A DNA stretch of 64,000 nt from Gelidibacter mesophilus DSM 14095 (lineage in GTDB: Bacteria > Bacteroidota > Bacteroidia > Flavobacteriales > Flavobacteriaceae): the NCBI RefSeq assembly GCF_000423005.1, contig NZ_AUHD01000006.1, positions 310,001-374,000 on the forward strand. Reading direction: 5' to 3'. A program made the position numbers and the translations under genes. A model generated the notes under the pieces. That model did no database searches, was not told the DNA's origin, and worked only from the letters and a program-made list of their open reading frames with translations. Every line of letters begins with the position of its first letter. The first letter of the stretch is position 1. This document shows, in pieces, positions 19,692 to 37,166 of the stretch.

Positions 19692-20267
19692 ATGGTGAAC
19701 ATCGAAGGCACACGTAGAGATGAAATTATAAAAACAGCGGCAAAACTTTTTAAAGAAAAGGGATACAGCGCGGTGACCATGCGAGATCTGGCAACGGCCA
19801 TGGGAATGAAAGCTGCTAGTCTTTATAACCATATAAATTCAAAGCAGGAGATTTTAAAAGCTATCATTATCTCCTTGGCTGAAGAATTCACGCATGGCAT
19901 GGATATCATCAAAAATTCAGATCAGACCGCCATAGAAAAATTAAAACTGATTGTGGCACTTCACGTTGAAATTACCACCAAGAACCCATACGGAATGGCC
20001 TCTCTTAATAATGATTGGATGCATTTGGAAGAACAACTTGGATACTATTTGGAATTGCGGGAAGGCTATGAGCAAGACTTCCTAAAGATTATCAGAAATG
20101 GAGTTTTTTCCAATGAAATAGCGGACACCAACCCTGAAGTCATCATGTTCTCCATACTGTCTACGTTGCGTTCCTTGTACTTATGGATCCCTAAAAAGGA
20201 AGTTGTTAATTCCAAAGCATTAGCCCAAAACTTAAGCCAGGTCCTCATCAACGGAATTAATAAATAG
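19692..20267 (+). CDS. TetR/AcrR-family transcriptional regulator, probable paa repressor
   Basis: A 191-residue TetR-type protein. The DNA-binding domain is at 6-55 (FKEKGYSAVTMRDLATAMGMKAASLYNHI with recognition helix). The C-terminal domain is all-alpha, for ligand binding. It stands 144 bases upstream of paaE on the same strand, and a perfect palindrome sits over the paaE promoter region, so it likely represses the cluster and is released by an aryl-CoA (inference from PaaR-type regulators). The start could also be the GTG directly after the ATG. Confidence 0.85.
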   Translation: MVNIEGTRRDEIIKTAAKLFKEKGYSAVTMRDLATAMGMKAASLYNHINSKQEILKAIIISLAEEFTHGMDIIKNSDQTAIEKLKLIVALHVEITTKNPYGMASLNNDWMHLEEQLGYYLELREGYEQDFLKIIRNGVFSNEIADTNPEVIMFSILSTLRSLYLWIPKKEVVNSKALAQNLSQVLINGINK

Positions 20268-20283
20268 TTTACAATAATTTTTG

Positions 20284-20314
20284 TAAATTTGCCGTTAGAC
20301 TAACAAGTGTTAGT
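20284..20314 (+). promoter_or_regulatory. paa promoter -7 box and TetR-type operator
   Basis: TAAATTTG (20284-20291) matches the Bacteroidota -7 box. Eight bases on lies a perfect 16-base palindrome ACTAAC-AAGT-GTTAGT (20299-20314), where transcription should start. It is the only copy I found in the window. No good TTG -33 at standard spacing. Confidence 0.65.
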
Positions 20315-20386
20315 TTGATTTCAGCAAGTTTTCCGGTCCTCGAGCCAGATACTTGTAGTGATACTGAATTTAATAAAACAAAACCT

Positions 20387-20402
20387 CCTTTCCTTGGAAA
20401 GG
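20387..20402 (+). promoter_or_regulatory. Perfect palindrome in paaE leader
   Basis: CCTTTCC-TT-GGAAAGG, ending nine bases before the paaE ATG. Either an RNA hairpin at the ribosome-binding region or a second protein-binding site. Confidence 0.4.
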
Positions 20403-20411
20403 AATAGGATT

Positions 20412-21485
20412 ATGGCAGAATTCCACAACCTCAAAGTTGCAGATATTTACAAGGAAACAAAAGACTGTGTAGTCGTTGCTTTTGACATTCCTGATGAGCT
20501 CAAAGAAACGTTCAGATACCGCCAAGGACAGCATTTAACTTTGCGAAAAGAGATCAATGGCGAAGACATTCGACGGAATTATTCGTTATGTTCAAGTCCG
20601 TTGGATGGCGAATGGAAAGTCGCGGTTAAGACCATACGGGACGGTGTGTTTTCAAATTATGCCTTTAGCGAACTTAAAAAGGGTGACACTCTTGAAGTCA
20701 TGATTCCACATGGCGAATTTACGGTTGATGTGGATGTTGAGGCAAGTAATAATTACATCGCATTTGCTGCAGGAAGTGGGATTACGCCATTATTATCCAT
20801 AATCAAAACACACTTGCAGCAAGAACCCAACAGTACCTTTAAGCTGTTTTACTTGAACAGGACCGTAAAATCCATTATCTTTAAAGAGGAAATAGAACAG
20901 CTTAAAAATCAATTTTTTGGAAGGTTTCAGGTCTTTTATTTTTTAACGAAGGAGCAGCGCGACATTCCATTTTTGAACGGACGTTTTGATAAGGAAAAAT
21001 TAGCCGTGTTAACCAAGACCTTTATTGATATTCCGGATACGCAACATGCGTTCATCTGTGGTCCGCAAGACATGATTTTCTTGATTCGCGATGAATTACA
21101 AGCTGCTGGGATGCCTAAGGATAATATCCATTTCGAATTGTTTTTTACGGGCAGTTCAGAAGAAGAAAATAAACATATTGCCGAAGTCCTTGAGCAACGA
21201 ATTGACGGCACAAGTGTGACCATTATCGATGGCGGAAAAGAATTCCATTTCATTATGAATGATGATTTTGATACGATTCTTGATGGTGCTTTAGCTGCGG
21301 GAGCCGATTTGCCTTTTGCCTGTAAAGGTGGCGTTTGTAGTACCTGCAAATGTCAAGTCATTGAAGGTTCGGTGAAAATGAAAAAGAATTACGCACTCGC
21401 TGACAAGGAAGTGGCACAAAATTATGTGTTGAGTTGTCAAGCCGTTCCTACAAGCGATAAGGTTGTGGTCGATTTTGACGTTTAG
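20412..21485 (+). CDS. paaE: Phenylacetyl-CoA 1,2-epoxidase, reductase subunit
   Basis: Passes electrons from NAD(P)H to the di-iron oxygenase PaaA. Ferredoxin-reductase FAD domain (about 1-105, with RRNYSLCSSP), NAD-binding domain (about 110-235, AGSGITPLLSI and CGPQDMI), and C-terminal plant-type 2Fe-2S domain with Cys304, Cys309, Cys312 and Cys342. The ATG at 20412 (MAEFHNLKV) is chosen over an upstream ORF start at 20358 that crosses the leader palindrome. First gene of the cluster, whereas in E. coli it follows paaABCD. Confidence 0.95.
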   Translation: MAEFHNLKVADIYKETKDCVVVAFDIPDELKETFRYRQGQHLTLRKEINGEDIRRNYSLCSSPLDGEWKVAVKTIRDGVFSNYAFSELKKGDTLEVMIPHGEFTVDVDVEASNNYIAFAAGSGITPLLSIIKTHLQQEPNSTFKLFYLNRTVKSIIFKEEIEQLKNQFFGRFQVFYFLTKEQRDIPFLNGRFDKEKLAVLTKTFIDIPDTQHAFICGPQDMIFLIRDELQAAGMPKDNIHFELFFTGSSEEENKHIAEVLEQRIDGTSVTIIDGGKEFHFIMNDDFDTILDGALAAGADLPFACKGGVCSTCKCQVIEGSVKMKKNYALADKEVAQNYVLSCQAVPTSDKVVVDFDV

Positions 21486-21493
21486 ATAGCATC

Positions 21494-21525
21494 AACCTGC
21501 AAGGTTTTAAAAACCTGGCAGGTTT
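21494..21525. repeat. Palindromic repeat family A, copy 1
   Basis: AACCTGC (21494-21500) pairs with GCAGGTT (21518-21524), with an inner AAGGTTTT/AAAACCT extension. Five A copies lie in paa gaps and none were seen elsewhere in the window. Confidence 0.75.
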
Positions 21526-21584
21526 CAAGTTTGTTTAAAGATTACCCTTGTAGAACAGGATAAAGAGATCATAAAGCGTGACAA

Positions 21585-21615
21585 GACCTCACAGGTTTTA
21601 AAAACCTGCGAGGTC
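21585..21615. repeat. Palindromic repeat family A, copy 2
   Basis: GACCTC (21585-21590) pairs with GAGGTC (21610-21615); the inner AGGTTTTAAAAACCT is shared with copy 1. The second copy in the same paaE-paaA gap. Confidence 0.7.
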
Positions 21616-21653
21616 TGAGCAAAGTAAATAACCATTCACTAATAATTATTAAA

Positions 21654-22610
21654 ATGAGTGAAGAGCAAATTAGGAATTTAGAAAAACAATTCGAAGAACA
21701 TATCGCAAGAGACGAAAAAATCGAACCGAAAGATTGGATGCCAGAAAAGTACCGTCAGACGCATATTCGTCAAATGTCGCAACATGCGCATTCTGAAATT
21801 GTAGGGATGCTTCCAGAAGGCAATTGGATCACCCGGGCCCCTTCTTTAAGACGGAAGGTAGCTTTGTTGGCTAAAGTCCAAGATGAAGCGGGACATGGAT
21901 TATATCTCTATTCTGCAACAGAAACCTTGGGCATTACACGAGAAGAAATGTATGAGCAATTACATACGGGAAAAGCGAAATACTCGAGTATTTTCAACTA
22001 TCCTACCGTTACTTGGGCCGATATGGGCGCTATTGGGTGGTTAGTTGATGGTGCGGCGATTATTAATCAAGTACCCTTATGCAGCACCTCTTTTGGCCCT
22101 TACGCTCGTGCAATGGTGCGTGTATGTAAAGAAGAAAGTTTCCATCAGCGTCAAGGTTATGAAATCATGATTAAGTTGGCAAACGGTACATTTGAACAAA
22201 AGGAAATGGCACAAGATGCTTTAAACCGATGGTGGTGGCCGAGTTTAATGATGTTAGGCCCTACAGATGCAGAATCTGTCCATACTGAACAATCCATGAA
22301 ATGGAAACTGAAACGTAAATCAAATGACGAATTACGTCAGCAGTTTATAGATCAAACCGTGCCACAAGCAGATTTGATCGGATTGACCATTCCCGACCCC
22401 GATTTGAAATGGAACGAAGAACGTGGTAGTTATGACTTTGGTGACATCGATTGGAATGAATTTTGGCAGGTGGTCAAAGGTCATGGTCCAATGAACAAAG
22501 AGCGTATGAAAGCCAGAGTTGGTGCATGGGAACGCGGCGAATGGGTGCGAGATGCAGCCATGGCACACGCAGAGAAGAAAGCGGAAAGAAAAGAAAAAGA
22601 AGCAGTATAA
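21654..22610 (+). CDS. paaA: Phenylacetyl-CoA 1,2-epoxidase, catalytic subunit A
   Basis: Ferritin-like di-iron oxygenase that epoxidises the ring of phenylacetyl-CoA, working with PaaB, C and E. The 318-residue length is normal. Glu/His ligands are seen in ExxH-type helices ([32 protein letters not shown]). The usual [14 protein letters not shown]-like segment is present ([14 protein letters not shown]). The Lys/Glu-rich tail from about residue 300 ([10 protein letters not shown]) is typical. The ATG at 21654 follows an AT-rich stretch. Confidence 0.97.
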
Positions 22611-22611
22611 C

Positions 22612-22643
22612 AACCTGCAAGGTTTTCAAAACCTTGTAAGTTT
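22612..22643. repeat. Palindromic repeat family A, copy 3
   Basis: AACCTGCAAGGTTTT facing AAAACCTTGTAAGTT. Begins one base after the paaA stop. Confidence 0.7.
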
Positions 22644-22690
22644 GAATTATAACTTTTCAGGTTTGAAACATAATATTAAGTTACAAAACT

Positions 22691-22981
22691 ATGACAACAA
22701 CAAAGAATTGGCCTCTATGGGAAGTCTTCGTAAGAAGCAAAAACGGATTGGAACATCGTCATTTTGGTAGTCTCCACGCAGCAGATGCAGACATGGCACT
22801 TGAAAATGCCCGCGATGTTTACACCCGAAGAAATGAAGGCGTCAGCATTTGGGTTGTAGAATCCAAAAACATTACCGCCTCCAATCCAGAACACAATGGC
22901 GAAATGTTTGAGCCAGCAAAAGATAAAGTATATCGCCATCCAACGTTTTACGAATTGCCTGATGAGGTGAAATATATGTAA
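22691..22981 (+). CDS. paaB: Phenylacetyl-CoA 1,2-epoxidase subunit B
   Basis: Small (96-residue) bridging subunit of the epoxidase. Carries the WPLWEVFVRSKNGLEHRHFG N-terminus and the HAADADMALENARDVYTRR and SIWVV motifs that define PaaB. Full length. Followed at once by a repeat-bounded small ORF instead of paaC. Confidence 0.96.
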   Translation: MTTTKNWPLWEVFVRSKNGLEHRHFGSLHAADADMALENARDVYTRRNEGVSIWVVESKNITASNPEHNGEMFEPAKDKVYRHPTFYELPDEVKYM

Positions 22982-23008
22982 TACGAACTTGAAATTGAAC
23001 GTGAAGTT

Positions 23009-23027
23009 GCCCGCCTGCCGGACGGGC
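23009..23027. repeat. Palindromic repeat family B, copy 1
   Basis: GCCCG-N9-CGGGC with a GCCTGCCGG core, much more GC-rich than its surroundings. It abuts the left arm of element 1. Related copies are in paaH and at 29.5 kb. Confidence 0.6.
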
Positions 23028-23041
23028 ATGAAATTGAAAAA

Positions 23042-23392
23042 ATGAATGAGAACAAATATGATTTATGCGAACGTTTAGAAGATTTTGCAGCTTCAATCAT
23101 TTTATTATATGATAAAAAGCCGTTGTCTTATGCTGGTGATTATTTGGCTAAACAACTCATTCGTTCCTCATGTTCATCAGCTTTAAACTATGGAGAAGTT
23201 TTGGGAGCAGGAACAGATGCAGACAAAATTAATAAGTTAAGAATTTGCTTAAAGGAATTGAGAGAAAGTCAACGAAACCTCAATATTCAATCTAAAGCTA
23301 AATTGTTTTCAAATGAAGATTTATTTGGATTAAAGGATGAAAATGATCAACTGATAAGAATAATAGTTACAAGAATTAAAAACATTAATTAA
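23042..23392 (+). CDS. Four-helix-bundle protein (23S rRNA intervening-sequence type)
   Basis: A 116-residue, all-alpha protein of the S23/IVP four-helix-bundle family, with the family core LAKQLIRSSCSSALNYGEV around residues 35-53 and LRICLKELRESQRN around 66-79. In rRNA genes such ORFs sit inside intervening sequences; related bundles (Avd) occur in diversity-generating retroelements, but I saw no reverse transcriptase here. It lies between inverted repeat arms in a paa gap. The biochemical function is unknown. It shares 'AKQLIRS...SALNYGE' with the ORF at 25912. Confidence 0.8.
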   Translation: MNENKYDLCERLEDFAASIILLYDKKPLSYAGDYLAKQLIRSSCSSALNYGEVLGAGTDADKINKLRICLKELRESQRNLNIQSKAKLFSNEDLFGLKDENDQLIRIIVTRIKNIN

Positions 23393-23492
23393 AAAAGGAG
23401 TTGAAATTTAAATCGGATTTCAATTCGAAAAGGATAAATTATGTATTGGAGCCCTTCAATTTCAACTTCAATTTCAACTTCAATTTTTTAAA

Positions 23493-24245
23493 ATGAAAGA
23501 TAATCTCTATCAATATATTCTCGGCATCGCCGACAACTCCCTAATCCTCGGGCAACGCATGGGCGAACTTTGCGGCCACGGACCAAGTTTGGAAACCGAC
23601 ATTGCCTGTACCAATATTTCTTTGGATTTATTCGGGCAGGTGCGCAGCTATTACCAATATGCGGCCAAAATCGCAGGTGATGGGCGTACAGAAGACGACA
23701 TTGCCATGCTTCGTAAAGAACGGGACTATGTCAACGTGCTTTTAGTAGAACAGCCCAACACCGATTTTGCTTATACTATGGCTCGTCACTTTTTATTTGA
23801 TGTGTATCACTTACTGTTTTTAACAGAGTTGAAGAAAAGTAAGGATATGACCTTGGCGGCAATCGCTATAAAATGTATTAAAGAGGTCAGTTACCATCGA
23901 CGTTTCTCATCGGATTGGATCCGACGTTTAGGCGACGGCACCGAAGAAAGTCACAACCGGATGCAAGCGGCAATTAACGATTTATGGACCTATACCGATG
24001 AATTGTTCCACCAAACTGAAGCCGATAAAGCGATGGTTTCAGAAGGTATTGGCGTAGATGTTACCAAATTAAAAGCCGCTTATTACGAAAAAGTAAATAC
24101 GATTTTAGAAGAAGCAACCTTAACCATTCCTGAATCCAAATATTTCCAAAAAGGAGGCAAATTGGGGATTCATACGGAACATATGGGTTTTTTGCTATCA
24201 GAATTGCAATACATGCAGCGTACTTATCCCAATATGGAATGGTAG
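23493..24245 (+). CDS. paaC: Phenylacetyl-CoA 1,2-epoxidase subunit C
   Basis: A 250-residue structural partner of PaaA, ferritin-like but without a complete di-iron site. Family motifs include LADNSLILGQRMGELCGHGP-like start (IADNSLILGQRMGELCGHGP), DIACTNISLDLFGQ and KEVSYHRRFSSDWIRRLGDGTEESHNRM. The ATG at 23493 lies directly after the right arm of element 1. That arm may therefore set the ribosome access of paaC. Confidence 0.96.
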   Translation: MKDNLYQYILGIADNSLILGQRMGELCGHGPSLETDIACTNISLDLFGQVRSYYQYAAKIAGDGRTEDDIAMLRKERDYVNVLLVEQPNTDFAYTMARHFLFDVYHLLFLTELKKSKDMTLAAIAIKCIKEVSYHRRFSSDWIRRLGDGTEESHNRMQAAINDLWTYTDELFHQTEADKAMVSEGIGVDVTKLKAAYYEKVNTILEEATLTIPESKYFQKGGKLGIHTEHMGFLLSELQYMQRTYPNMEW

Positions 24246-24268
24246 AAAAATCATGAATAAGGAAGTTT

Positions 24269-24334
24269 GAATATCGAATCATGAAGTTAAATCTGAACAA
24301 AACTTCAAATTTCATTATTCAGCGTTCGATATTC
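24269..24334. repeat. Palindromic repeat, family H
   Basis: GAATATCGAA (24269-24278) pairs with TTCGATATTC (24325-24334), and an inner TGAAGTT (24282-24288) pairs with AACTTCA (24301-24307). It is in the paaC-paaD gap. The inner GAAGTT/AACTTC is shared with family E. Confidence 0.6.
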
Positions 24335-24344
24335 GATATTAACT

Positions 24345-24845
24345 ATGATCACAACAGAACAAAATATCGACCCAAAATTAATCCCGATCCTGGAAGCAGT
24401 TTCCGATCCGGAAATCCCAGTCCTATCTATTATGGACATGGGTGTTGTGCGTTCTGCTGTTTTTGAAAATAGCATTGTAAAAGTTCAAATCACACCAACC
24501 TATAGTGGCTGTCCTGCCATGGATGTTATTGGTGATGATATAAGAAAAGCATTAAAAGATGCGGGATATAAGTCGGAAGTAGAGTTGATTTTATCCCCAG
24601 CTTGGACCACCGATTGGATTACCCCAAGAGGCAGAAAGGCATTAGAAGATTATGGAATCACAGCACCCTTAGGTGTCGAAGCCGACAAAGATGTATTGCT
24701 TCACGGCAAACGCCTTGTAAAGTGTCCACAATGTGGTTCAACAAATACAAAAATGGTGAGCCAGTTTGGTTCAACAGCATGTAAAGCACAGTTTCAGTGC
24801 GACGATTGCTTGGAACCCTTTGATTATTTTAAATGTTTAAAGTAG
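24345..24845 (+). CDS. paaD: 1,2-phenylacetyl-CoA epoxidase maturation protein PaaD
   Basis: A 166-residue protein with an N-terminal MIP18/SufT-like domain (DPEIPVLSIMDMGVVRS near residue 20) and a C-terminal zinc-ribbon-like part with CPQCG and CDDC pairs. It is needed for epoxidase activity in vivo, probably in metal-centre assembly. Full length. Separated from paaC by a palindromic repeat (family H). Confidence 0.95.
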   Translation: MITTEQNIDPKLIPILEAVSDPEIPVLSIMDMGVVRSAVFENSIVKVQITPTYSGCPAMDVIGDDIRKALKDAGYKSEVELILSPAWTTDWITPRGRKALEDYGITAPLGVEADKDVLLHGKRLVKCPQCGSTNTKMVSQFGSTACKAQFQCDDCLEPFDYFKCLK

Positions 24846-24856
24846 CAAGGATCAAC

Positions 24857-24922
24857 GATTGCAGATCGAAGAATGTTGATTTTTGAAGTACTTCTAAAAT
24901 CAACAATCGTTAATCTTCAATC
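24857..24922. repeat. Palindromic repeat family E, empty copy 1
   Basis: Two 33-base arms meet with no loop (24857-24889 and 24890-24922); 27 of 33 positions pair by my alignment. The core is GTTGATTTTTGAAGT facing ACTTCTAAAATCAAC. The arms of element 2 belong to the same family. Confidence 0.7.
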
Positions 24923-24936
24923 AAAAATTATATAAA

Positions 24937-25716
24937 ATGAATTCAATATTATTAGAGATAAAAAATAGTGTGGCGTATATCACGCTCAACCGCCCAGAAG
25001 TCTTCAATAGTTTTAATCGTGAAATGGCGCTACGGTTGCAAGACACACTTGATGCTTGTGAAAAAAGCGACGAGGTTCGAGCCATCGTTTTGACCGGTAA
25101 CGGAAAAGCATTTTGTGCGGGTCAAGATTTAAAAGAGGTGACCTCGCCAGAATTAAATCCAGGGTTTAAGAAGATCTTGGAAGAACATTACAATCCGATA
25201 ATCACAAGAATCCGCTCGATCAAAAAACCAATTATTGGTGCGATCAACGGGGTAGCTGCTGGAGCGGGAGCAAATATTGCTTTGGCTTGCGATATAGTTG
25301 TAGCTCATGAAAAGGTCAGTTTTATTCAAGCATTTAGTCTCATTGGTTTGGTGCCTGATAGTGCAGGAACTTTCTTCTTGCCAAGACTTATCGGATTTCA
25401 AAAAGCATTGGCATTGGCTATGCTGGGCGATAAAGTGTCTGCAGAAGAAGCTGAAAAAATGGGAATGCTCTATAAAGTTCTGCCTTTAGAGACTTTTGAA
25501 GAAGATGTCAATCAACTTGCTTTAAAACTTGCCAATATGCCCACAAAAGCTTTAGGCATGATCAAGGAATTATTCAATCAATCCATGACTAACGATTTGG
25601 AAGCCCAGTTGGCATTGGAATCTAAATTTCAAATCGAAGCAGCACAAACTGAAGATTATGCTGAAGGCGTTGCGGCATTTGTTGAAAAAAGGAAACCGAA
25701 TTTCATCGGTAGATAA
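24937..25716 (+). CDS. paaG: 2-(1,2-epoxy-1,2-dihydrophenyl)acetyl-CoA isomerase
   Basis: Crotonase-fold enzyme that isomerises ring-epoxide to oxepin-CoA and later shifts a double bond. The 259-residue length is normal. FCAGQDL is at about 59-65. The isomerase Asp lies in LVPDSAGTF (Asp141), while the two hydratase Glu positions are Asn and Ala. This identifies PaaG rather than the PaaF hydratase. It ends EKRKPNFIGR, a usual tail for the family. Confidence 0.9.
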   Translation: MNSILLEIKNSVAYITLNRPEVFNSFNREMALRLQDTLDACEKSDEVRAIVLTGNGKAFCAGQDLKEVTSPELNPGFKKILEEHYNPIITRIRSIKKPIIGAINGVAAGAGANIALACDIVVAHEKVSFIQAFSLIGLVPDSAGTFFLPRLIGFQKALALAMLGDKVSAEEAEKMGMLYKVLPLETFEEDVNQLALKLANMPTKALGMIKELFNQSMTNDLEAQLALESKFQIEAAQTEDYAEGVAAFVEKRKPNFIGR

Positions 25717-25721
25717 ATTTA

Positions 25722-26331
25722 TATTGTAGATTGTTGAATGTCGATTTAGGATTTTTGAAGTTATATTTTTTGCACAATTTGAGAGTTTGCGTAAAAAAAT
25801 TACAGGGATGCTCAATCAACATGAAAATCCGGAAAGCGGCATATAACATATTATGAAGACAAACTTCAAGAATCAACAATTTTAAATCATTTATAGTTTA
25901 ATTATAATAATATGAAACCAAATCAATTAGAGGAGCGACTTATTCAGTTTGCAATTGATGTGATTTTGATTTGCAAGAAGATAGATAATTCATTTGCTTC
26001 AGAACATCTGGCTAAACAACTTATAAGATCGGCAACTTCTGCCGCATTAAATTATGGGGAGGCTCAAGGTGGAGAATCAATTAGGGATTTTCTGCATAAT
26101 ATGAAAATCTGTTTAAAGGAATTACGTGAATGCTTAATAAATATGAAGATTCAGAAAGGAGCCAATTTAATTACAGACATAAATGCTTTGGACAAGCTAT
26201 TAAAGGAAAATAATGAATTGATTTCGATTTTTGTGGTTAGCATAAAAACGGCATCATTAAAATTGAAATCATAGGTTATGTCTGGAGCCAAACTTCAAAA
26301 ATCATCAATTTCCAATCAACAATCTTCAATA
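25722..26331 (+). mobile_element. IVS-like element 2: family E arms around a four-helix-bundle ORF
   Basis: Left arm 25722-25762 and right arm 26291-26331 are inverted repeats of 41 bases, 34 pairing by my alignment. Their inner ends GAAGTT and AACTTC correspond to the centre of the empty family E palindromes at 24.9 and 34.4 kb. The 528 bases between the arms hold one four-helix-bundle ORF. The right arm ends just before the true paaH start. This is the clearest case of an ORF lodged in a palindrome loop. Insertion history is inference. Confidence 0.65.
25912..26274 (+). CDS. Four-helix-bundle protein (23S rRNA intervening-sequence type)
   Basis: A 120-residue all-alpha protein. The core LAKQLIRSATSAALNYGEAQ (about 33-52) and MKICLKELRECLINMKI (about 64-80) are those of the S23/IVP bundle family. 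It has 150 bases of AT-rich leader inside the element. Intact reading frame, unlike the copy at 27.6 kb. Function unknown; no DGR-type reverse transcriptase is in the window. Confidence 0.8.
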   Translation: MKPNQLEERLIQFAIDVILICKKIDNSFASEHLAKQLIRSATSAALNYGEAQGGESIRDFLHNMKICLKELRECLINMKIQKGANLITDINALDKLLKENNELISIFVVSIKTASLKLKS

Positions 26332-27525
26332 ATGAGAGTAGGAATTATCGGCTCAGGAACCATGGGAAGCGGCATCGCACAGGTTGCTGCAACATCGGGC
26401 TGCAAAGTAAAATTGTACGATACCAATCAATCCGCATTGGACAAGGCAAAAGCCGCTTTGGAAAAAATATTATCACGATTGATTGAAAAAGATCGTATTG
26501 ATGCTGACGAAAAATCCCGAATCCAAAACAACATTTCCTACGTCGATGATTTAAAAGACCTATCAGACTCCGATTTGACCATTGAAGCCATTGTTGAAAA
26601 TCTGGACATCAAGAAGAAAGTGTTTTCAGAATTGGAAACCTATGTTTCAAAAGACTGTATTATAGCCTCCAATACGTCAAGTTTGTCGATTGCTTCCATT
26701 GCAGCCTCCTTAAAAAAACCAGAACGTTGCATTGGGATCCATTTTTTCAATCCAGCCCCATTGATGCAATTGGTAGAAGTGATTCCGGCCATTCAAACTT
26801 CAAAAGAAGTTTTAGAGAAATCGACAAAAATTATATCCGATTGGAAAAAAACAGTAGCCGTTGCAAAAGACACTCCCGGATTTATAGTCAATCGGGTTGC
26901 AAGACCTTTTTATGGCGAAGCTTTAAGAATATACGAAGAAGGTATTGCTGACCTGCCTGCCGGACAGGCAGGTTTCGCAACCATCGATGAGAGTTTGAAA
27001 ACTTTAGGAGGTTTCAAAATGGGGCCTTTCGAATTAATGGATTTCATTGGAAATGACGTTAATTATACAGTGACTGAAACTGTTTTTACGGCGTTTTATT
27101 TCGATCCGAGATACAAACCAGCCTTTACCCAAAAACGTTTTGCAGAAGCTGGCTATTTAGGAAGAAAATCAGGAAAGGGTTATTATGATTATGATGACAA
27201 TGGTAGGATACTAATTTCAACTGAGTTAAAGAAACCACTCGACGAAAAATTAGCCCAACAAATTTTCGACCGCGTATTGGTTATGCTTATTAATGAAGCT
27301 GCAGATGCACTATTCATGAACATTGCTTCTGCAGAAGATATTGATCATGCGATGACCAAAGGGGTTAACTACCCAAAAGGCCTATTGGCGTGGGCAGACG
27401 AAAAAGGAATCGATTGGTGCGTTTCAAAAATGGACGAATTATATAATGAATATCATGAGGATAGGTATCGGTGTAGCCCGTTGTTGAGGAAGATGAAAAC
27501 TAACGGATTGAGGTTTGAGGTATGA
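26332..27525 (+). CDS. paaH: 3-hydroxyadipyl-CoA / 3-hydroxybutyryl-CoA dehydrogenase
   Basis: NAD-dependent oxidation of 3-hydroxyadipyl-CoA. The N-terminal Rossmann motif GIIGSGTMGSGIA is at about 3-15, and C-terminal helical domains carry ETPGF-like (DTPGFIVNR) and GPFELMDFIG motifs. I chose the ATG at 26332. The ORF is open upstream from 26278, but those 54 bases are family E repeat. A palindrome adds seven residues (LPAGQAG) at positions 208-214 between otherwise contiguous family sequence (GIAD...FATID). Whether the insert is tolerated depends on its place in the fold, apparently a loop. Confidence 0.92.
   Translation: MRVGIIGSGTMGSGIAQVAATSGCKVKLYDTNQSALDKAKAALEKILSRLIEKDRIDADEKSRIQNNISYVDDLKDLSDSDLTIEAIVENLDIKKKVFSELETYVSKDCIIASNTSSLSIASIAASLKKPERCIGIHFFNPAPLMQLVEVIPAIQTSKEVLEKSTKIISDWKKTVAVAKDTPGFIVNRVARPFYGEALRIYEEGIADLPAGQAGFATIDESLKTLGGFKMGPFELMDFIGNDVNYTVTETVFTAFYFDPRYKPAFTQKRFAEAGYLGRKSGKGYYDYDDNGRILISTELKKPLDEKLAQQIFDRVLVMLINEAADALFMNIASAEDIDHAMTKGVNYPKGLLAWADEKGIDWCVSKMDELYNEYHEDRYRCSPLLRKMKTNGLRFEV
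26951..26973. repeat. Palindromic repeat family B inserted in paaH
   Basis: Perfect 9-base arms ACCTGCCTG (26951-26959) and CAGGCAGGT (26965-26973) with a 5-base loop. About 21 bases appear added in frame. Confidence 0.75.
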
Positions 27526-27561
27526 GGAAACGGAGGGACTAACATTTTTTTATTAGAGTTA

Positions 27562-28007
27562 TTGAGGGATTAGGTATTAGGCATTTGGTATTAGTATGAA
27601 AAGTGCATTTCATTTTAAGTTTGAAGATTTACAAGTTTATCAGAAAGCGATGGACTTTGGGGGAAGTCGTTGATGTGATAGTCAAAAAGTTTCCAGCATA
27701 CGAATTGTACCCCTTATCATCACAGTTCAGAAGAGCAGCGGATTCGATTGCTTTAAATATTGCAGAAGGCTATCCTGGTTCTGATGCACAATTTGTTAAG
27801 CATATAAATTATGCCATTTATAGCGCAAATGAGTGTGTTAGTTGCAGTACAAAAGCCAAACGAAGATTATATATTAATTTTGATGAAGATGAAGAAAATA
27901 GAAAGTTGATTTCAGAATTGACAAAAATGATGTCTTCTTTAAGAAAGAAGATTTTAGAAAGAAACGCAAATAACTAATCCCTAATTCCAAATACCTAATG
28001 CCAATAA
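27562..28007 (+). mobile_element. IVS-like element 3: imperfect arms around a broken four-helix-bundle ORF
   Basis: The left arm at about 27562-27595 and right arm at about 27973-28007 share TTATTG, ATTAGGTATT and ATTAGT blocks in inverted order, with a two-base length difference. The arms differ in sequence from those of elements 1 and 2. Between them is a frameshifted four-helix-bundle ORF. It lies between paaH and paaI; the annotated paaI ATG lies within the right arm. Confidence 0.45.
27596..27977 (+). pseudogene. Four-helix-bundle protein, frameshifted
   Basis: ATG at 27596 starts MKSAFHFKFEDLQVYQKAMDFG, the usual family start. An extra G in a G5 run (27659-27663) shifts the frame to a TGA. 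Continuing in the other frame gives EVVDVIVKKFPAYEL, the core SSQFRRAADSIALNIAEGYP and a Lys-rich end at 27977. This variant is of another subfamily from the two intact ORFs (FRRAADS in place of AKQLIRS). A GTG at 27603 starts the second frame but gives an unrelated N-terminus, so I treat it as broken. Confidence 0.65.
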
Positions 28008-28411
28008 ACGGAAACCTCATTCCTTACAAAATGCTCTCACTCGATGCCTACAGCACCTACCTCGGCATTGAAATTTTAGAATGCGAAATAGGAAGATGTA
28101 AGGTCGGAATGACCATCAGAAAAGAAATGCTAAATAGCATGGGAAAGGCCCACGGCGGTATCAGTTACGCCTTAGCAGACACTGCTTTCGGATTTGCGGC
28201 TAATACGCATGGTAAGTACGCAGTTTCTATAGAGACAAGTATCAATCATATTGAAGCCTTAAATGAAGGCGATTATATAGTGGCTGAATCCGTAATTGAG
28301 AAGATGAAAAACAAATTAGGATTTAATATCATCGAGGTTAAGCGCGGCAATGAATTGGTAGCACTTTTCAAAGGTGTGGTATATAGAACCAATAAAAAAT
28401 GGGAAGAATAG
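27998..28411 (+). CDS. paaI: Hotdog-fold thioesterase PaaI
   Basis: Hydrolyses stalled aryl-CoA intermediates to free CoA. A 137-residue hotdog protein with the family motif MGKAHGGISYALADTAFG (residues about 48-65; Asp61-type catalytic acid and HGG loop). The ATG at 27998 lies in the repeat arm, so the native start may be ATG at 28031 (MLSLDAYSTYLG), which is close to typical PaaI N-termini. The 28031 start gives 126 residues. Confidence 0.88.
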   Translation: MPINGNLIPYKMLSLDAYSTYLGIEILECEIGRCKVGMTIRKEMLNSMGKAHGGISYALADTAFGFAANTHGKYAVSIETSINHIEALNEGDYIVAESVIEKMKNKLGFNIIEVKRGNELVALFKGVVYRTNKKWEE

Positions 28412-28467
28412 CTGGTATTGTTTTATATTTAATACAAAATAAATAATACCAATAAACAATAGCAAAT

Positions 28468-29325
28468 ATGAAATGGAAAGGTAGAAGAAAAAGTGGTAAT
28501 TTGGAAGACCGTCGTGGCATGTCCAATAAAGGAAAGTTTGCCGCAGGTGGCGGTATTATAGCCGTGGTTGTAGTGCTACTGCAAATGTTTGGAGGTGATA
28601 CCGGACAAGTATTGGCACCAATTCTTGAAGGTGTAACACAGTCAAGTTCACAGCCGACTGAAGAACGCGAATTGACCGAACAAGAAATAGAATTAGGTGA
28701 ATTCATGGACGCTGTATTAGTGGATACAGAAGATATTTGGAGTCAAATTTTTAAGGACAATAATCTCGGAAATTATAAAGAAGCTGGAATGGTTTTGTTT
28801 ACTGATGCTGTAAGAACTGGTTGTGGAAATGCAAGCTCGGCTTCGGGACCATTTTATTGTCCAACTGATCAGAAACTGTATATGGATCTAAGTTTTTTTG
28901 ATGAATTACGAACCCGATTTGGAGCAAAAGGTGGTGATTTTGCTATGGCATACGTAACCGCTCACGAAATTGGTCATCACGTTCAAACCTTGCTCGGAAC
29001 TTCTCAAAAAGTAAGGCAGATGCAGCAGCAATCCAGTGCGGCACAAGCCAATCAGCTTTCGGTAGCACAAGAACTTCAAGCCGATTTTTACGCAGGGGTG
29101 TGGGCGCATCACAATAAAGAATATTTGGAAGAAGGTGATATTGAAGAAGCCTTAAGTGCTGCAAACGCGGTTGGTGATGATGCCATTCAAAAACGAACGC
29201 AAGGTAGTGTCCAACCAGATAGTTTTACCCATGGTACTTCCGAGCAACGCATGCACTGGTTCATGAAAGGCTATAAAACTGGCGATATCAGACAAGGCGA
29301 TACGTTTTCGGAATTATTGAATTAA
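28468..29325 (+). CDS. YpfJ-family neutral zinc metallopeptidase
   Basis: A 285-residue membrane-anchored protein: short cytoplasmic N-terminus (RKSGNLEDRRG), one transmembrane segment at about 27-50, then a zinc peptidase-like domain with HEIGHH near residue 170 and a downstream QELQADFYAGVWAH motif with the third ligand. In the family it is called putative neutral zinc metallopeptidase; natural substrate unknown. It has no known role in phenylacetate breakdown, so its place inside the paa run is odd. Confidence 0.88.
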   Translation: MKWKGRRKSGNLEDRRGMSNKGKFAAGGGIIAVVVVLLQMFGGDTGQVLAPILEGVTQSSSQPTEERELTEQEIELGEFMDAVLVDTEDIWSQIFKDNNLGNYKEAGMVLFTDAVRTGCGNASSASGPFYCPTDQKLYMDLSFFDELRTRFGAKGGDFAMAYVTAHEIGHHVQTLLGTSQKVRQMQQQSSAAQANQLSVAQELQADFYAGVWAHHNKEYLEEGDIEEALSAANAVGDDAIQKRTQGSVQPDSFTHGTSEQRMHWFMKGYKTGDIRQGDTFSELLN

Positions 29326-29329
29326 ACTC

Positions 29330-29347
29330 TTCCTGCGAAGGCAGGAA
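29330..29347. repeat. Palindromic repeat family C, copy 1
   Basis: TTCCTGC-N4-GCAGGAA (29330-29336 and 29341-29347), four bases after the stop of the peptidase gene. Copies also occur in paaY and in the E1 gene. Confidence 0.7.
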
Positions 29348-29421
29348 TCTCATTGTTGTAAGAAAAGTTGAGCATCGTAAATGCAGTTGGTGATGATTGA
29401 ATAAATAAATTATAACTGACC

Positions 29422-29453
29422 AATCTGCTAGGTTTCTAAAACCTTGTTGGTTT
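29422..29453. repeat. Palindromic repeat family A, copy 4 (diverged)
   Basis: AATCTGCTAGGTTT facing AAACCTTGTTGGTTT; the most diverged A copy. Confidence 0.55.
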
Positions 29454-29476
29454 GGAAATTAAAATAAAAACAAAAG

Positions 29477-29516
29477 ATTCCCGCCCCTGCCTGCCGGCAG
29501 GCAGGTTCGCGGGAAT
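29477..29516. repeat. Nested palindrome: family B inside family C
   Basis: Outer arms ATTCCCGC (29477-29484) and GCGGGAAT (29509-29516) are family C. The loop holds a family B palindrome CCTGCCTGCC-GGCAGGCAGG (29486-29505). It ends 11 bases before the thiolase ATG. Confidence 0.7.
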
Positions 29517-29527
29517 AAGGAAAGCTT

Positions 29528-30742
29528 ATGAAAGAAGCATATATCATAGACGGCATCAGAACGCCAATAGGAAGTTATCAAGGCACTTTATCTGCAGTAA
29601 GAACTGACGATTTAGCAGCTTTGGTTATAGCAGAAATTGTCAAACGGAATTCAAACATTCCAAAAGAAGCGTATGACGATGTCATTTTGGGCTGTGCAAA
29701 CCAAGCAGGAGAAGACAACCGAAATGTGGCGCGTATGGCCTCATTATTGGCTGGTTTACCATTTTCAGTTCCAGGTGAAACGGTCAACCGTTTATGCAGT
29801 TCTGGTTTATCTGCAATTATTCATGCCAATCGCGCCATAAAAGCTGGTGATGGTGATATTTTTATTGCTGGAGGTGTGGAGCATATGACCCGAGGGCCGT
29901 ATGTGGTTGCCAAACCATCCAGTGCGTTTGGAACTGATGCTAAAATGTACGATTCCAGTTTTGGTTGGCGCTTTGTCAATCCGAAAATGGAAAAATTATA
30001 TGGCACCGATGGCATGGGGCAAACCGCAGAAAATCTCGTAGGGAAATATAAGATATCTCGGGAAGATCAAGATAAGTTTGCTTTTTGGAGCCAAATGAAA
30101 GCAGCTAAAGCCCAAGAAAACGGACGTTTAGCTAAAGAAATCATGACCGTTGAAATTCCTCAGCGAAAGAAGGATCCCATTCTGTTTTCAAAAGATGAAT
30201 TTGTAAAACCGAATACATCTTTAGAAGTTTTAGGGAAATTGCGCGGCGCATTTAAAGCTGAAGGAGGAAGCGTCACCGCCGGGAATTCATCAGGACTGAA
30301 CGATGGAGCCGCCGCAACGATCATCGCTTCTGAAGCAGCCGTAAAAAAATACAATTTAAAACCCTTGGCGAGAATTGTAAGTTCAGCAGTGGTTGGTGTC
30401 GAACCAAGAATCATGGGCATCGGTCCAGTGGAAGCCTCTAACAAGGCATTACTAAAATCAGGTTTGACGATGGACGATATGGACATCATCGAACTCAACG
30501 AAGCGTTTGCAGCGCAAGCTTTGGCGTGCACCAGAGCATGGGGATTGGCAGATGACGACCCGCGATTAAACCCTAACGGAGGGGCGATTGCTATTGGTCA
30601 TCCGCTCGGTGTAACGGGAACTCGTGTTGCGTATTCAGCTGCTTTGGAGTTGAAAGAAAAAGGAAAAAGATATGCACTTATAACGATGTGTATTGGCGTT
30701 GGTCAAGGGTATGCAGCAATAATTGAAAATGTGAATTTGTAG
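29528..30742 (+). CDS. paaJ: 3-oxoadipyl-CoA/3-oxo-5,6-dehydrosuberyl-CoA thiolase
   Basis: Thiolase that yields acetyl-CoA and succinyl-CoA at the end of the pathway; equivalent to PcaF. The 404-residue length is normal. Active-site Cys in NRLCSSGLSA near residue 90, His in GGAIAIGHPLG near residue 360, and the second Cys in MCIGVGQG near residue 392. The ATG at 29528 follows a nested palindrome. Named paaJ by context; pcaF is equally possible. Confidence 0.93.
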   Translation: MKEAYIIDGIRTPIGSYQGTLSAVRTDDLAALVIAEIVKRNSNIPKEAYDDVILGCANQAGEDNRNVARMASLLAGLPFSVPGETVNRLCSSGLSAIIHANRAIKAGDGDIFIAGGVEHMTRGPYVVAKPSSAFGTDAKMYDSSFGWRFVNPKMEKLYGTDGMGQTAENLVGKYKISREDQDKFAFWSQMKAAKAQENGRLAKEIMTVEIPQRKKDPILFSKDEFVKPNTSLEVLGKLRGAFKAEGGSVTAGNSSGLNDGAAATIIASEAAVKKYNLKPLARIVSSAVVGVEPRIMGIGPVEASNKALLKSGLTMDDMDIIELNEAFAAQALACTRAWGLADDDPRLNPNGGAIAIGHPLGVTGTRVAYSAALELKEKGKRYALITMCIGVGQGYAAIIENVNL

Positions 30743-30744
30743 TA

Positions 30745-30812
30745 TTTGGGCGTTCCCCGAAAAGGGTCGCGCTTTCACTACTCGCTTCCCACCGAAAGAG
30801 TGGGAGAGTTCA
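30745..30812. repeat. Dispersed repeat family D, copy 1
   Basis: Starts TTTGGGCGTT, then CCCCGAAAAGGGTCGCGCTTTC. The shape (GGCGTT..CCC..GGGTC.GGCTTTC) is shared with the copy at 35.1 kb and with repeats I recall from other flavobacterial genomes. Non-coding. Confidence 0.5.
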
Positions 30813-30971
30813 AACAGATCGTTCAAATGCTGAGCATTCACGATTTCTTAATTATCAAATAAGTATGGTTGAGTAATCGCTAACGCAGTCAAGCAAAATA
30901 GAACAAGGTTGTTGAATTAATATTGGAGTAAAGAATTTAATAATACGATTTCCACTTTTGTGGGCATTACT

Positions 30972-33632: not shown

Positions 33633-34382
33633 ATGGAGCCATACGTAACACTAAAAAACAAAAACGGAGTAGGATATATCGAATTTTTCCATCCTGCCCA
33701 AAACTCCTTACCCGGAAATCTATTGTCAGAATTGGCACGAACTATTCATTCTGCTGGTGAAGACGAACATATCAAGGTCATGGTCCTGCAGAGCGGGGGC
33801 GATAGAACGTTCTGTGCAGGTGCAAGTTTCAACGAACTTGTTGCTATCAACGATGAGGAAACTGGAAAGATATTCTTTTCGGGTTTCGCGAACGTCATTA
33901 ATGCCATGCGAAAATGTCCAAAATTCATCATCGGTCGTATTCAAGGAAAAACCGTTGGTGGAGGTGTCGGACTGGCATCAGCCACCGACTATTGTATGGC
34001 AACTAAATATGCCCAAATCAAATTAAGCGAACTGAATGTTGGCATCGGACCGTTTGTGGTTGGGCCTGCAGTACAACGCAAATTGGGATTGAGCGGCATG
34101 TCGCAGATAGCCATTGACGCCAACACATTTTATACCGCAGAATGGGCCATGCAAAAAGGATTATATACCCAGGTATTCGATTCCGCTGAAGAATTGGACG
34201 ATGCTGTAAAAACATTCGCCGAAACCATGTGCAGTTACAATCCAAAAGCCATGGCCGAAATGAAAACAATGTTTTGGCGCGGTACCGAAGATTGGGACCA
34301 ACTGTTGCTACAACGTGCAAAAATTAGTGGACGCTTGGTGCTTTCAGACTTTACTAAGGAGAAACTCAAAGAATATGAATGA
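33633..34382 (+). CDS. paaF: Enoyl-CoA hydratase/isomerase-family protein, probable 2,3-dehydroadipyl-CoA hydratase
   Basis: Crotonase-fold protein (249 residues). FCAGASF is at about 60-66 and VGGGVGLA at 108-115. By alignment to rat crotonase, the residue matching Glu164 is present (Glu133, SELNVGIG) but that matching Glu144 is Gly113, so it is not a textbook hydratase. By pathway position it is the only candidate in the window for the PaaF step, since the paralogue at 24.9 kb is PaaG-like. The function is therefore inferred mostly from context. Confidence 0.7.
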   Translation: MEPYVTLKNKNGVGYIEFFHPAQNSLPGNLLSELARTIHSAGEDEHIKVMVLQSGGDRTFCAGASFNELVAINDEETGKIFFSGFANVINAMRKCPKFIIGRIQGKTVGGGVGLASATDYCMATKYAQIKLSELNVGIGPFVVGPAVQRKLGLSGMSQIAIDANTFYTAEWAMQKGLYTQVFDSAEELDDAVKTFAETMCSYNPKAMAEMKTMFWRGTEDWDQLLLQRAKISGRLVLSDFTKEKLKEYE

Positions 34383-34391
34383 TTAACGAAT

Positions 34392-34456
34392 TAAGATTAA
34401 CGATTGTTGATTTTGGAAGTTCAAAAATCAACAATCTTCAATCAACAATCTTCAAT
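34392..34456. repeat. Palindromic repeat family E, empty copy 2
   Basis: GATTGTTGATTTT (34402-34414) pairs perfectly with AAAATCAACAATC (34424-34436) round a 9-base centre containing GGAAGTTC. Followed by one further half-arm (CTTCAATCAACAATCTTCAAT). Confidence 0.75.
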
Positions 34457-36644: not shown

Positions 36645-37166
36645 AAAATGAAGTTCCACGCAAAGACCACGAAGATTTTAACGCAAAGATATTTTGCGTG
36701 CTTTGCGAGTTATTTATGTTGCTTTGCGTGAGATAATTAGATGATGACAGAGAATGAACTTTCTTTTAAAGTTATTGAATTGCTTTAGAATTGCATAAGA
36801 GTATTGGTCCTGGTTTATTGGAATCAACTTATGAAAATGCATTAGCTTATGATTTGAGAGAAAGTGGTCTTTCGGTTCAGCAGCAAGTTCCAATGCCATT
36901 CATTTACAAAGAAGTTAAAATGGATATTGGATATAGATTAGATTTATTGGTTGAAAATATAATAATTATTGAAATTAAATCTGTCGAAAATTTGGCACCT
37001 GTTCATTACGCGCAACTATTGACTTATCTGAAATTATCAGATTTGAAATTAGGATTACTGATGAATTTTAATTCTAAGTTATTGAAAGAAGGAATTCATA
37101 GGATAGTAAATAATTTATAAAACCCTCCGAATTAAAGAGTTCAAAACTTTAGCAAACTTTGCTAAA
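36645..37166 (+). mobile_element. Element 4: repeat arms around a broken GxxExxY ORF
   Basis: Upstream there are several CGCAAAG/CTTTGCG words, including a hairpin ACGCAAA-N5-TTTGCGT (36681-36699). Downstream is a small hairpin TTTAGC-N7-GCTAAA (37148-37166). The two sides are only weakly complementary, so the pairing is less sure than in elements 1 to 3. Between E2 and E1 genes. Confidence 0.35.
36741..37120 (+). pseudogene. GxxExxY-type nuclease-like protein, frameshifted
   Basis: ATG at 36741 starts MMTENELSFKVIE, the usual family start; then a TAG follows because one base is missing near 36776-36779. In the other frame the family sequence continues with LHKSIGPGLLESTYENAL, where the GxxExxY core is visible, and then a PD-(D/E)xK-like IIIEIKS motif to the end IVNNL. 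Close in style to GxxExxY proteins abundant in Bacteroidota. A TTG at 36791 could start the rest, but I treat it as broken. Confidence 0.65.

Follow-up and report, generated by a model that had tools for sequence, protein, structure and literature searches.

Genes of the 23S_rRNA_IVP family between inverted word arrays in operon gaps appear to form a widespread type of mobile element

According to the available part of a published account (PMC4990558), the 23S ribosomal RNA (rRNA) intervening sequence (IVS) of Coxiella is 428 nt long, and its terminal inverted repeats form a 28-bp stem that carries an open reading frame (ORF) for the S23p protein in its loop. Tandem GACAGAT heptamers, whose copy number varies among strains, precede the ORF, and in vitro, RNase III cuts the stem close to its middle. 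The same source describes rRNA IVSs as substituting small tetraloops of 23S helices, calls their function and origin unclear, and states that S23p proteins have no known function and that a protein of the IVP family is a pentamer. Solved structures related to IVP are 2gsc and 2rld. Here we analyzed a 64,000-nt stretch of Gelidibacter mesophilus DSM 14095 DNA (hereafter, the window), whose phenylacetate (paa) operon contains three ORFs of this family, PF05635 (23S_rRNA_IVP). All three (IVPa, IVPb, and IVPc, in elements a, b, and c, respectively) are on the plus strand, and each occupies its own intergenic gap.

The three ORFs score above the curated PF05635 cut-off of 33.8 bits, and PF05635 is the only family matched within them (Table 1). 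The proteins adjoining them match the PaaB, PaaA_PaaC, PaaD-type, enoyl-CoA hydratase, 3-hydroxyacyl-CoA dehydrogenase, thioesterase, and thiolase families. Each ORF lies between an array of short words (the 5' arm) and an inverted array (the 3' arm). The period of the words is 6 nt for IVPa and 7 nt for IVPb and IVPc. The ORF of IVPc is broken at its start, because the frame from the ATG at 27596 reaches a stop after 25 residues, past a G run. In the minimum-energy RNA folds, the arms pair in all three gaps with modest z-scores: -2.44 for element a (1 of 100 shuffles equally good), -2.60 for element b (0 of 20), and a weak -1.52 for element c (7 of 100). An earlier note on this DNA had claimed that IVP-type ORFs lie between inverted arms in the paaB-paaC, paaG-paaH, and paaH-paaI gaps, that the arm sequence differs at each site, and that the RNA would fold into a stem with the ORF in its loop, as in an rRNA IVS. 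The PF05635 matches, the 83–84% complementarity of the arms, the separate vocabulary of each gap, and the predicted folds (that of element c being weak) bear these claims out, and the pattern proved to be wider than noted. We conclude that each unit, composed of a 5' word array, an IVP ORF, and an inverted 3' array, is probably a small selfish element of the rRNA-IVS type residing in gaps between co-directional protein genes.

A search for inverted arms around PF05635 ORFs elsewhere found them widespread across the genus, the phylum, and other groups. The family is present in 116 of the 148 sampled genomes of the phylum of the window, and also in other phyla. The genus set consists of 78 matches in nine genomes, eight of them in the own genome (G000), and the phylum set consists of the 30 best-scoring loci from the 148 genomes. 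A named set was formed from the best 80 of 569 loci by omitting three loci with short flanks and two of Ignavibacteria, which were placed in neither group, leaving 52 loci of Bacteroidota and 23 of other groups, including Chloroflexota, Planctomycetota, Thiobacillus, Geothrix, and Opitutia. Neither the phylum set nor the named set is a random sample. As controls, we used 365 genes predicted by a rough ORF caller in 400 kb of the own genome. The mean pairing score of the genus loci was 19.2 with their own flanks vs 12.3 when the flanks were mispaired; 46 of the 78 loci exceeded the 95th percentile of the mispaired scores and 12 exceeded the 99th. The 95th percentile was also exceeded by 20 of the 30 phylum loci, 25 of the 52 named Bacteroidota loci, and 13 of the 23 loci of other groups. 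An arm score of 16 was reached by 47/78, 20/30, 32/52, and 13/23 loci of the four sets, respectively, vs 17/365 controls. The idea that the arms are mere hairpins flanking any operon gene was rejected on these counts, as only 7 of the 208 co-directional controls had such flanks.

The flanks have a characteristic period. Autocorrelation in the genus set gave sharp peaks at lag 7 (0.387 and 0.379 for the two flanks) and lag 14 (0.352 and 0.351), other lags giving 0.26–0.32, and no lag-7 peak was found in the ORF body (0.274) or the far flanks (0.263). The lag-7 values were 0.342/0.334 in the phylum set, 0.400/0.375 in the named Bacteroidota, and 0.397/0.355 in the other groups. With fixed thresholds, both flanks were 7-periodic in 30/78 genus, 15/30 phylum, 19/52 named Bacteroidota, and 12/23 other loci, vs 2/365 controls. 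The periodic words contain more G than C upstream (in 0.79, 0.91, 0.67, and 0.58 of the loci of the four sets) and more C than G downstream (in 0.73, 0.85, 0.78, and 0.67), the skew being weakest outside Bacteroidota. We also considered whether any scattered family has such flanks, and rejected this possibility because the flanks of PF13366 and PF01797 show no clear 7-nt periodicity, though both are inverted.

Two side observations were made on these families. The PF13366 (GxxExxY, PDDEXK_3) genes, with a copy in the window at 36779-37105 (G000:C5:346779-347105) and the genus loci L126-L155, lie mostly in sense between co-directional ORFs (26/30). Nine of the 30 loci exceed the mispaired 95th percentile, with words such as CACAGAG, CGCAGATT, and CTTTGCG and no 7-nt period; these loci may represent a second, parallel type of element whose ORF has a nuclease fold. 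Among the PF05635 loci, G001:C11:115746 and G001:C72:2661 (L055 and L056) have an identical ORF, similar flanks, and long 7-nt arrays on both sides, and this pair is probably an assembly duplicate.

The placement of the IVP ORFs is also distinctive. With the rough ORF caller, both neighboring ORFs were co-directional with the IVP ORF at 157 of the 183 loci (75/78 genus, 23/30 phylum, 47/52 named Bacteroidota, and 12/23 others); one of the three genus exceptions is IVPa of the window, which was miscalled through an antisense ORF. A 400-kb sample of the own genome contains 319 gaps, 224 of them co-directional, so that random insertion in random orientation would be expected to give sense placement in about one third of cases. 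Taken as a whole, the IVP units appear to be a widespread type of mobile element, known until now mainly from ribosomal RNA.

Grouping the 78 genus matches by flank similarity gave 26 sites, at which presence is patchy. (Gap names such as sufC-sufD, mraY-murD, and nuoC-nuoD were assigned by eye from the sequences, not by search.) IVPa is present in four of the nine genomes; its gap is occupied in G006, G007, and G008 by an ORF-less hairpin with a different vocabulary, and in G004 and G005 by 7-periodic words with no hairpin beating shuffles. IVPb is present in eight genomes as two allele types paired with two arm vocabularies (four of each), and the gap of G005 holds just a 3' arm remnant plus another hairpin. 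IVPc is present in five; among the others, an ORF-less hairpin occupies the gap in G006 and G008, G004 combines a hairpin with a relic, and G001 retains a relic alone. The relatives thus do not all carry these ORFs as ordinary paa genes, an outcome that would have spoken against the earlier note. The sufC-sufD gap carries an IVP element in three genomes, in each case with in-frame stops, and each of the other six has an ORF-less 72–73-nt hairpin of CAGT words that beats 100 of 100 shuffles. At mraY-murD, relics of arm and ORF are found in G006 and G007 and an arm-like remnant in G003. Site 6 is filled in five genomes by other sequence that lacks the 7-nt period; in two of these five, the sequence contains inverted repeats of a different type. 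The contents of the ORF-less sites vary, and such sites therefore range from a hairpin to nothing recognizable.

Some units differ from their flanks in apparent history. The 119 same-site pairs between genomes include 41 with higher identity in the element than in the flanks (by more than 4 points in 15) and 53 in which the element is less identical by more than 4 points. The element exceeds the flanks by more than 5 points in 14 pairs, and of the 12 whose edges were examined, only G000/G003 and G000/G005 have a strong tract bounded close to the gap. Transfer is clear in both pairs. At IVPa, the G000/G003 tract begins 2 nt downstream of the paaB stop and ends 23 nt beyond the paaC start; at IVPc, the G000/G005 tract overshoots the gap by 70 nt on the upstream side and by 86 nt on the downstream side. 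Conversely, in eight of the 119 pairs, at three sites, an element of less than 70% identity is embedded in flanks of at least 88%, for example 63% inside 96% in G007/G008. The tract of low identity starts within -18 to +2 nt of the upstream stop in seven of the eight pairs (-50 in the other) and ends within -9 to +12 nt of the downstream start in seven (+61 in the other). In addition, the genes flanking IVPb group G007 with G008, and the ORF groups G007 with G002 and G004. Comparison of the genomes shows units exchanged and replaced as one piece at particular gaps, with edges often at the upstream stop and downstream start codons. The proposal of IVS-like mobile elements in the earlier note is thus supported by the resemblance to IVSs, the ORF-free sites, the replacements, and the transfers, but clean deletions of the arm-ORF-arm unit were not found at the ORF-free sites, which hold hairpins of other vocabulary, partial arms, relics, or other sequence.

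The ORF itself was compared in same-site intact pairs (stop-free only, dS 0.05–1.5). The median dN/dS was 0.06 for 36 pairs, with none at 1 or more, and in-frame stops occur in 15 of the 78 genus copies. The comparison shows purifying selection on the ORF while it is intact, and copies that decay. The following points weigh against an IVS-type mobile element. Locus L250 (masked upstream) was excluded from the tests of mismatches and of correlation. Sense-strand G:U pairs are not in excess among the arm mismatches (146 vs 158 antisense), so that these give no indication of selection on RNA pairing, and the correlation of arm vocabulary with ORF phylogeny is weak (rho 0.141, permuted maximum 0.162; orthologous sites are included, which confounds the test). 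Paired arms are not universal, as 54 of the 78 genus loci pass either the paired-arm or the two-sided period test, and they are not special by themselves, because Y1 (PF01797) transposase loci of the genus have inverted flanks too (13/28 above the mispaired 95th percentile, 2 of 30 being left out as too short). No near-identical ORFs were found at different sites among the 26 genus sites (best, 79% over 122 nt), so that there is no sign of a recent move to a new site in this genus. The IVP element has no known catalytic component. In 78 of the 119 pairs, the identity of the element does not exceed that of its flanks, as in vertical descent or faster decay, and the eight replacement pairs represent fewer than eight events because they share genomes. 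Over about 180 nt at the beginning of paaA, G000 and G003 are 98–100% identical, and short-tract homologous recombination could be an alternative carrier of gaps between species. Finally, the S23p ORF of Coxiella is decaying and probably yields no protein (PMC4990558, available part).

The recombination argument can be extended to an explanation without any element, in which the gap hairpins are host features for message processing or stability, the IVPs are ordinary small genes between them, and ordinary short-tract homologous recombination swaps the gaps. Hairpins beating at least 99 of 100 shuffles were indeed found in 32 of the 55 IVP-free paa gaps of the nine genomes (27 of the 55 are 7-periodic), and both the purifying selection on the ORF and the further high-identity tract within paaA would fit. 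It is harder to reconcile with one arm standing on each side of the IVP ORF, an arrangement so rare among the control genes, or with replacement edges that cluster near stop and start codons at either end. The in-frame stops, the patchy presence at the 26 sites, and an equal anatomy in several phyla also speak against host features, and we consider this explanation quite improbable.

The absence of a G:U bias in the arms raises another alternative, a DNA transposon-like unit whose 7-nt arrays are iterons bound as DNA and whose transposase acts in trans, with no role for RNA folding. The arms resemble inverted copies of one word array, their mismatches resembling those of two diverging copies, and the ORF-less hairpins built of the same words look like miniature derivatives. 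Such a unit would not be expected to lack recent copies at new sites, the strong sense orientation is unexpected of a simple DNA transposon, and a stem-loop around the same ORF family is known in rRNA (PMC4990558, available part). We regard a DNA transposon-like unit as rather unlikely. In a test for compensatory evolution within sites, the arms gave 17.25 in cis vs 15.86 in trans (p 0.009), a difference carried mainly by three sites.

Under the preferred reading of a selfish IVS-type element, the unit would be expressed from the host transcript, which would explain its sense orientation. The arms would form a stem in the transcript with the ORF in the loop, so that insertion would leave the neighboring genes undamaged, and by analogy with rRNA the stem may be cut by RNase III. 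The pentameric four-helix-bundle IVP protein may bind the word arrays, as RNA hairpin or as DNA, and may help the unit to copy into the same gap of element-free alleles, with copying enzymes presumably supplied by the host or another element. A profile search of the own genome found RVT_1 only on contig C25 and a single Y1_Tnp on C14, neither being on the window contig C5; other transposase families were not searched. A present need for a reverse transcriptase in the same genome was rejected, as G007 has eight IVP matches and no RVT_1 match. A bolder version holds that the IVP elements form a widespread RNA-borne mobile class, excised through the stem, bound by IVP at the 7-nt words, and recopied via an RNA intermediate with enzymes in trans, the rRNA IVSs being one outpost; we consider this version unlikely.

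IVP could also be a regulator that binds the words in its own transcript, for autoregulation or translational insulation, the arms being binding sites and not mobility ends. The prevalence of G-rich words on the 5' side would agree with this role, as would the proposal, in the available part of PMC4679880, that direct heptamers are translational regulatory sites in Beggiatoaceae. As a regulator would leave the replacement and transfer of whole units unexplained, we think this reading very unlikely.

Hairpins of similar words also occur without an ORF. Those with 7-periodic arms number three in the 64-kb window vs two in 400 kb of contig C1, and by eye one vocabulary is found both with and without an ORF in the hairpin loop (GAAGT[ORF]ACTTC vs GAAGTACTTC). 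In the paaG-paaH gap of G003 (L038), two tandem elements were recognized by eye, and the short loop of the first matches the decayed IVP piece found in the window; this suggests that ORF-less hairpins can arise via loop loss. The Rfam search of positions 20000-32000, with E up to 1, detected no rRNA match and no group I or II intron core, and nothing useful.

Other repeats were noticed in the operon. The inverted pair 21494-21524/22612-22642 around paaA was considered as two half-arms and rejected, since by eye it consists of two self-complementary hairpins. A hairpin family AACCTGCAAGGTTTT...AAAACCTTGTAGGTT occupies operon gaps at 21493-21528, 21584-21619, 22611-22646, and 29421-29456, and its members stand in for word hairpins in some species. 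The palindrome CCTGCCTGCCGGACAGGCA lies in frame within paaH at 26952-26970, where it coincides with a 21-nt length difference from G003 and G005, and a relative of it is found at 23010-23028, on the 5' side of element a. The paaA-paaB gap of G007 and G008 (L042 and L041) contains a tandem longer repeat, GTGAAATTGC...GAGAACC.

Table 1. Features of the IVP units and related repeats, in window coordinates
Feature	Position	Strand	Remarks
Element a, 5' arm	22985..23009	+	paaB-paaC gap, 6-nt words
IVPa, PF05635 ORF, 116 aa	23042..23392	+	41.1 bits, whole-protein E 2.3e-10
Element a, 3' arm	23457..23481	+	25-nt arm pair, 84% complementary
Element b, 5' arm	25722..25762	+	paaG-paaH gap, 7-nt words
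Decayed piece of a second IVP ORF	25767..25841	+	25 aa, 60% to IVPb; upstream of IVPb
Additional 3'-arm copy 5' of IVPb	25854..25889	+	Repeat family D2
IVPb, PF05635 ORF, 120 aa	25912..26274	+	46.7 bits
Element b, 3' arm	26291..26331	+	41-nt arm pair, 83% complementary
Element c, 5' arm	27566..27595	+	paaH-paaI gap, 7-nt words
IVPc, PF05635 ORF, broken	27603..27977	+	72.2 bits; ATG (27596) out of frame with remainder
Element c, 3' arm	27973..28002	+	30-nt arm pair, 83% complementary
IVPa transferred unit, G000/G003	22983..23516	+	98% identical vs 89–90% in flanks
IVPc high-identity segment, G000/G005	27455..28084	+	~99% vs ~84% outside; edges approximate
ORF-less 7-nt-word hairpin, paaC-paaD gap	24247..24340	+	GAAGTT...AACTTC apex
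ORF-less hairpin closed by GAAGTACTTC, paaD-paaG gap	24857..24922	+	Words as in IVPb arms
Another ORF-less 7-nt-word hairpin	34382..34456	+	

The occurrence of the same ORF-in-stem anatomy in operon gaps, together with the transfer and replacement pairs, provides many natural experiments and simple assays for the binding target of IVP. If the reading as a selfish element is true, parts or relics of one element type would account for some of the heptamer hairpins in intergenic regions and for many of the scattered genes of four-helix-bundle proteins. In the open-access literature, outside which most subscription papers and preprints lie, we found no report linking PF05635 ORFs, inverted word arrays, and operon gaps; the available parts of PMC8934634 and PMC10910872 touch on two families just in passing. 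According to the available part of PMC4679880, TAACTGA and other tandem heptamers occur in Beggiatoaceae, Cyanobacteria, and Bacteroidetes, mostly in intergenic regions, and those of Bacteroidetes lie forward to the downstream ORF. The IVP arms share with them the tandem 7-nt repeats and the mostly intergenic location, whereas the heptamers are described as direct repeats, with no IVP ORF or inverted partner array named in that part of the source. Avd (4DWL) of the diversity-generating retroelements has a four-helix bundle homologous to that of PF05635 2GSC (PMC10053308, available part). Unlike these retroelements, the IVP units have no adjacent reverse transcriptase, and there is no RVT_1 match on the window contig.

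IVP units resemble REP/REPIN-RAYT systems in having an ORF between inverted arms plus ORF-less hairpins elsewhere. In the RAYT arrangement, the ORF lies between inverted hairpin arms, and ORF-less hairpins are found elsewhere. However, the IVP element has no Y1 transposase, and the Y1 genes of this genus have flanks without a clear 7-nt period (lag 7, 0.280 and 0.304). The closest likeness is to the rRNA IVSs of Coxiella and Leptospira, which share the PF05635/S23p ORF in a stem loop, the sporadic distribution, and the decay of the ORF in some strains, and the Coxiella IVS also has heptamer repeats before its ORF, as the operon-gap units do (PMC4990558, available part). The differences are that the window units lie in gaps of paa protein genes, not in 16S or 23S rRNA, that the arm words of operon-gap units vary from site to site, and that their intact ORFs are under strong purifying selection, in contrast to a Coxiella protein that is probably not made. 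The window units have stem-forming terminal inverted repeats, an IVP ORF in the loop, and a sporadic distribution among relatives, as IVSs do, and we do not file them as rRNA IVSs because an IVS by definition lies in rRNA. The known kind is the intervening sequence of rRNA; what is new here is the presence of IVS-like elements in the operon gaps of protein genes.

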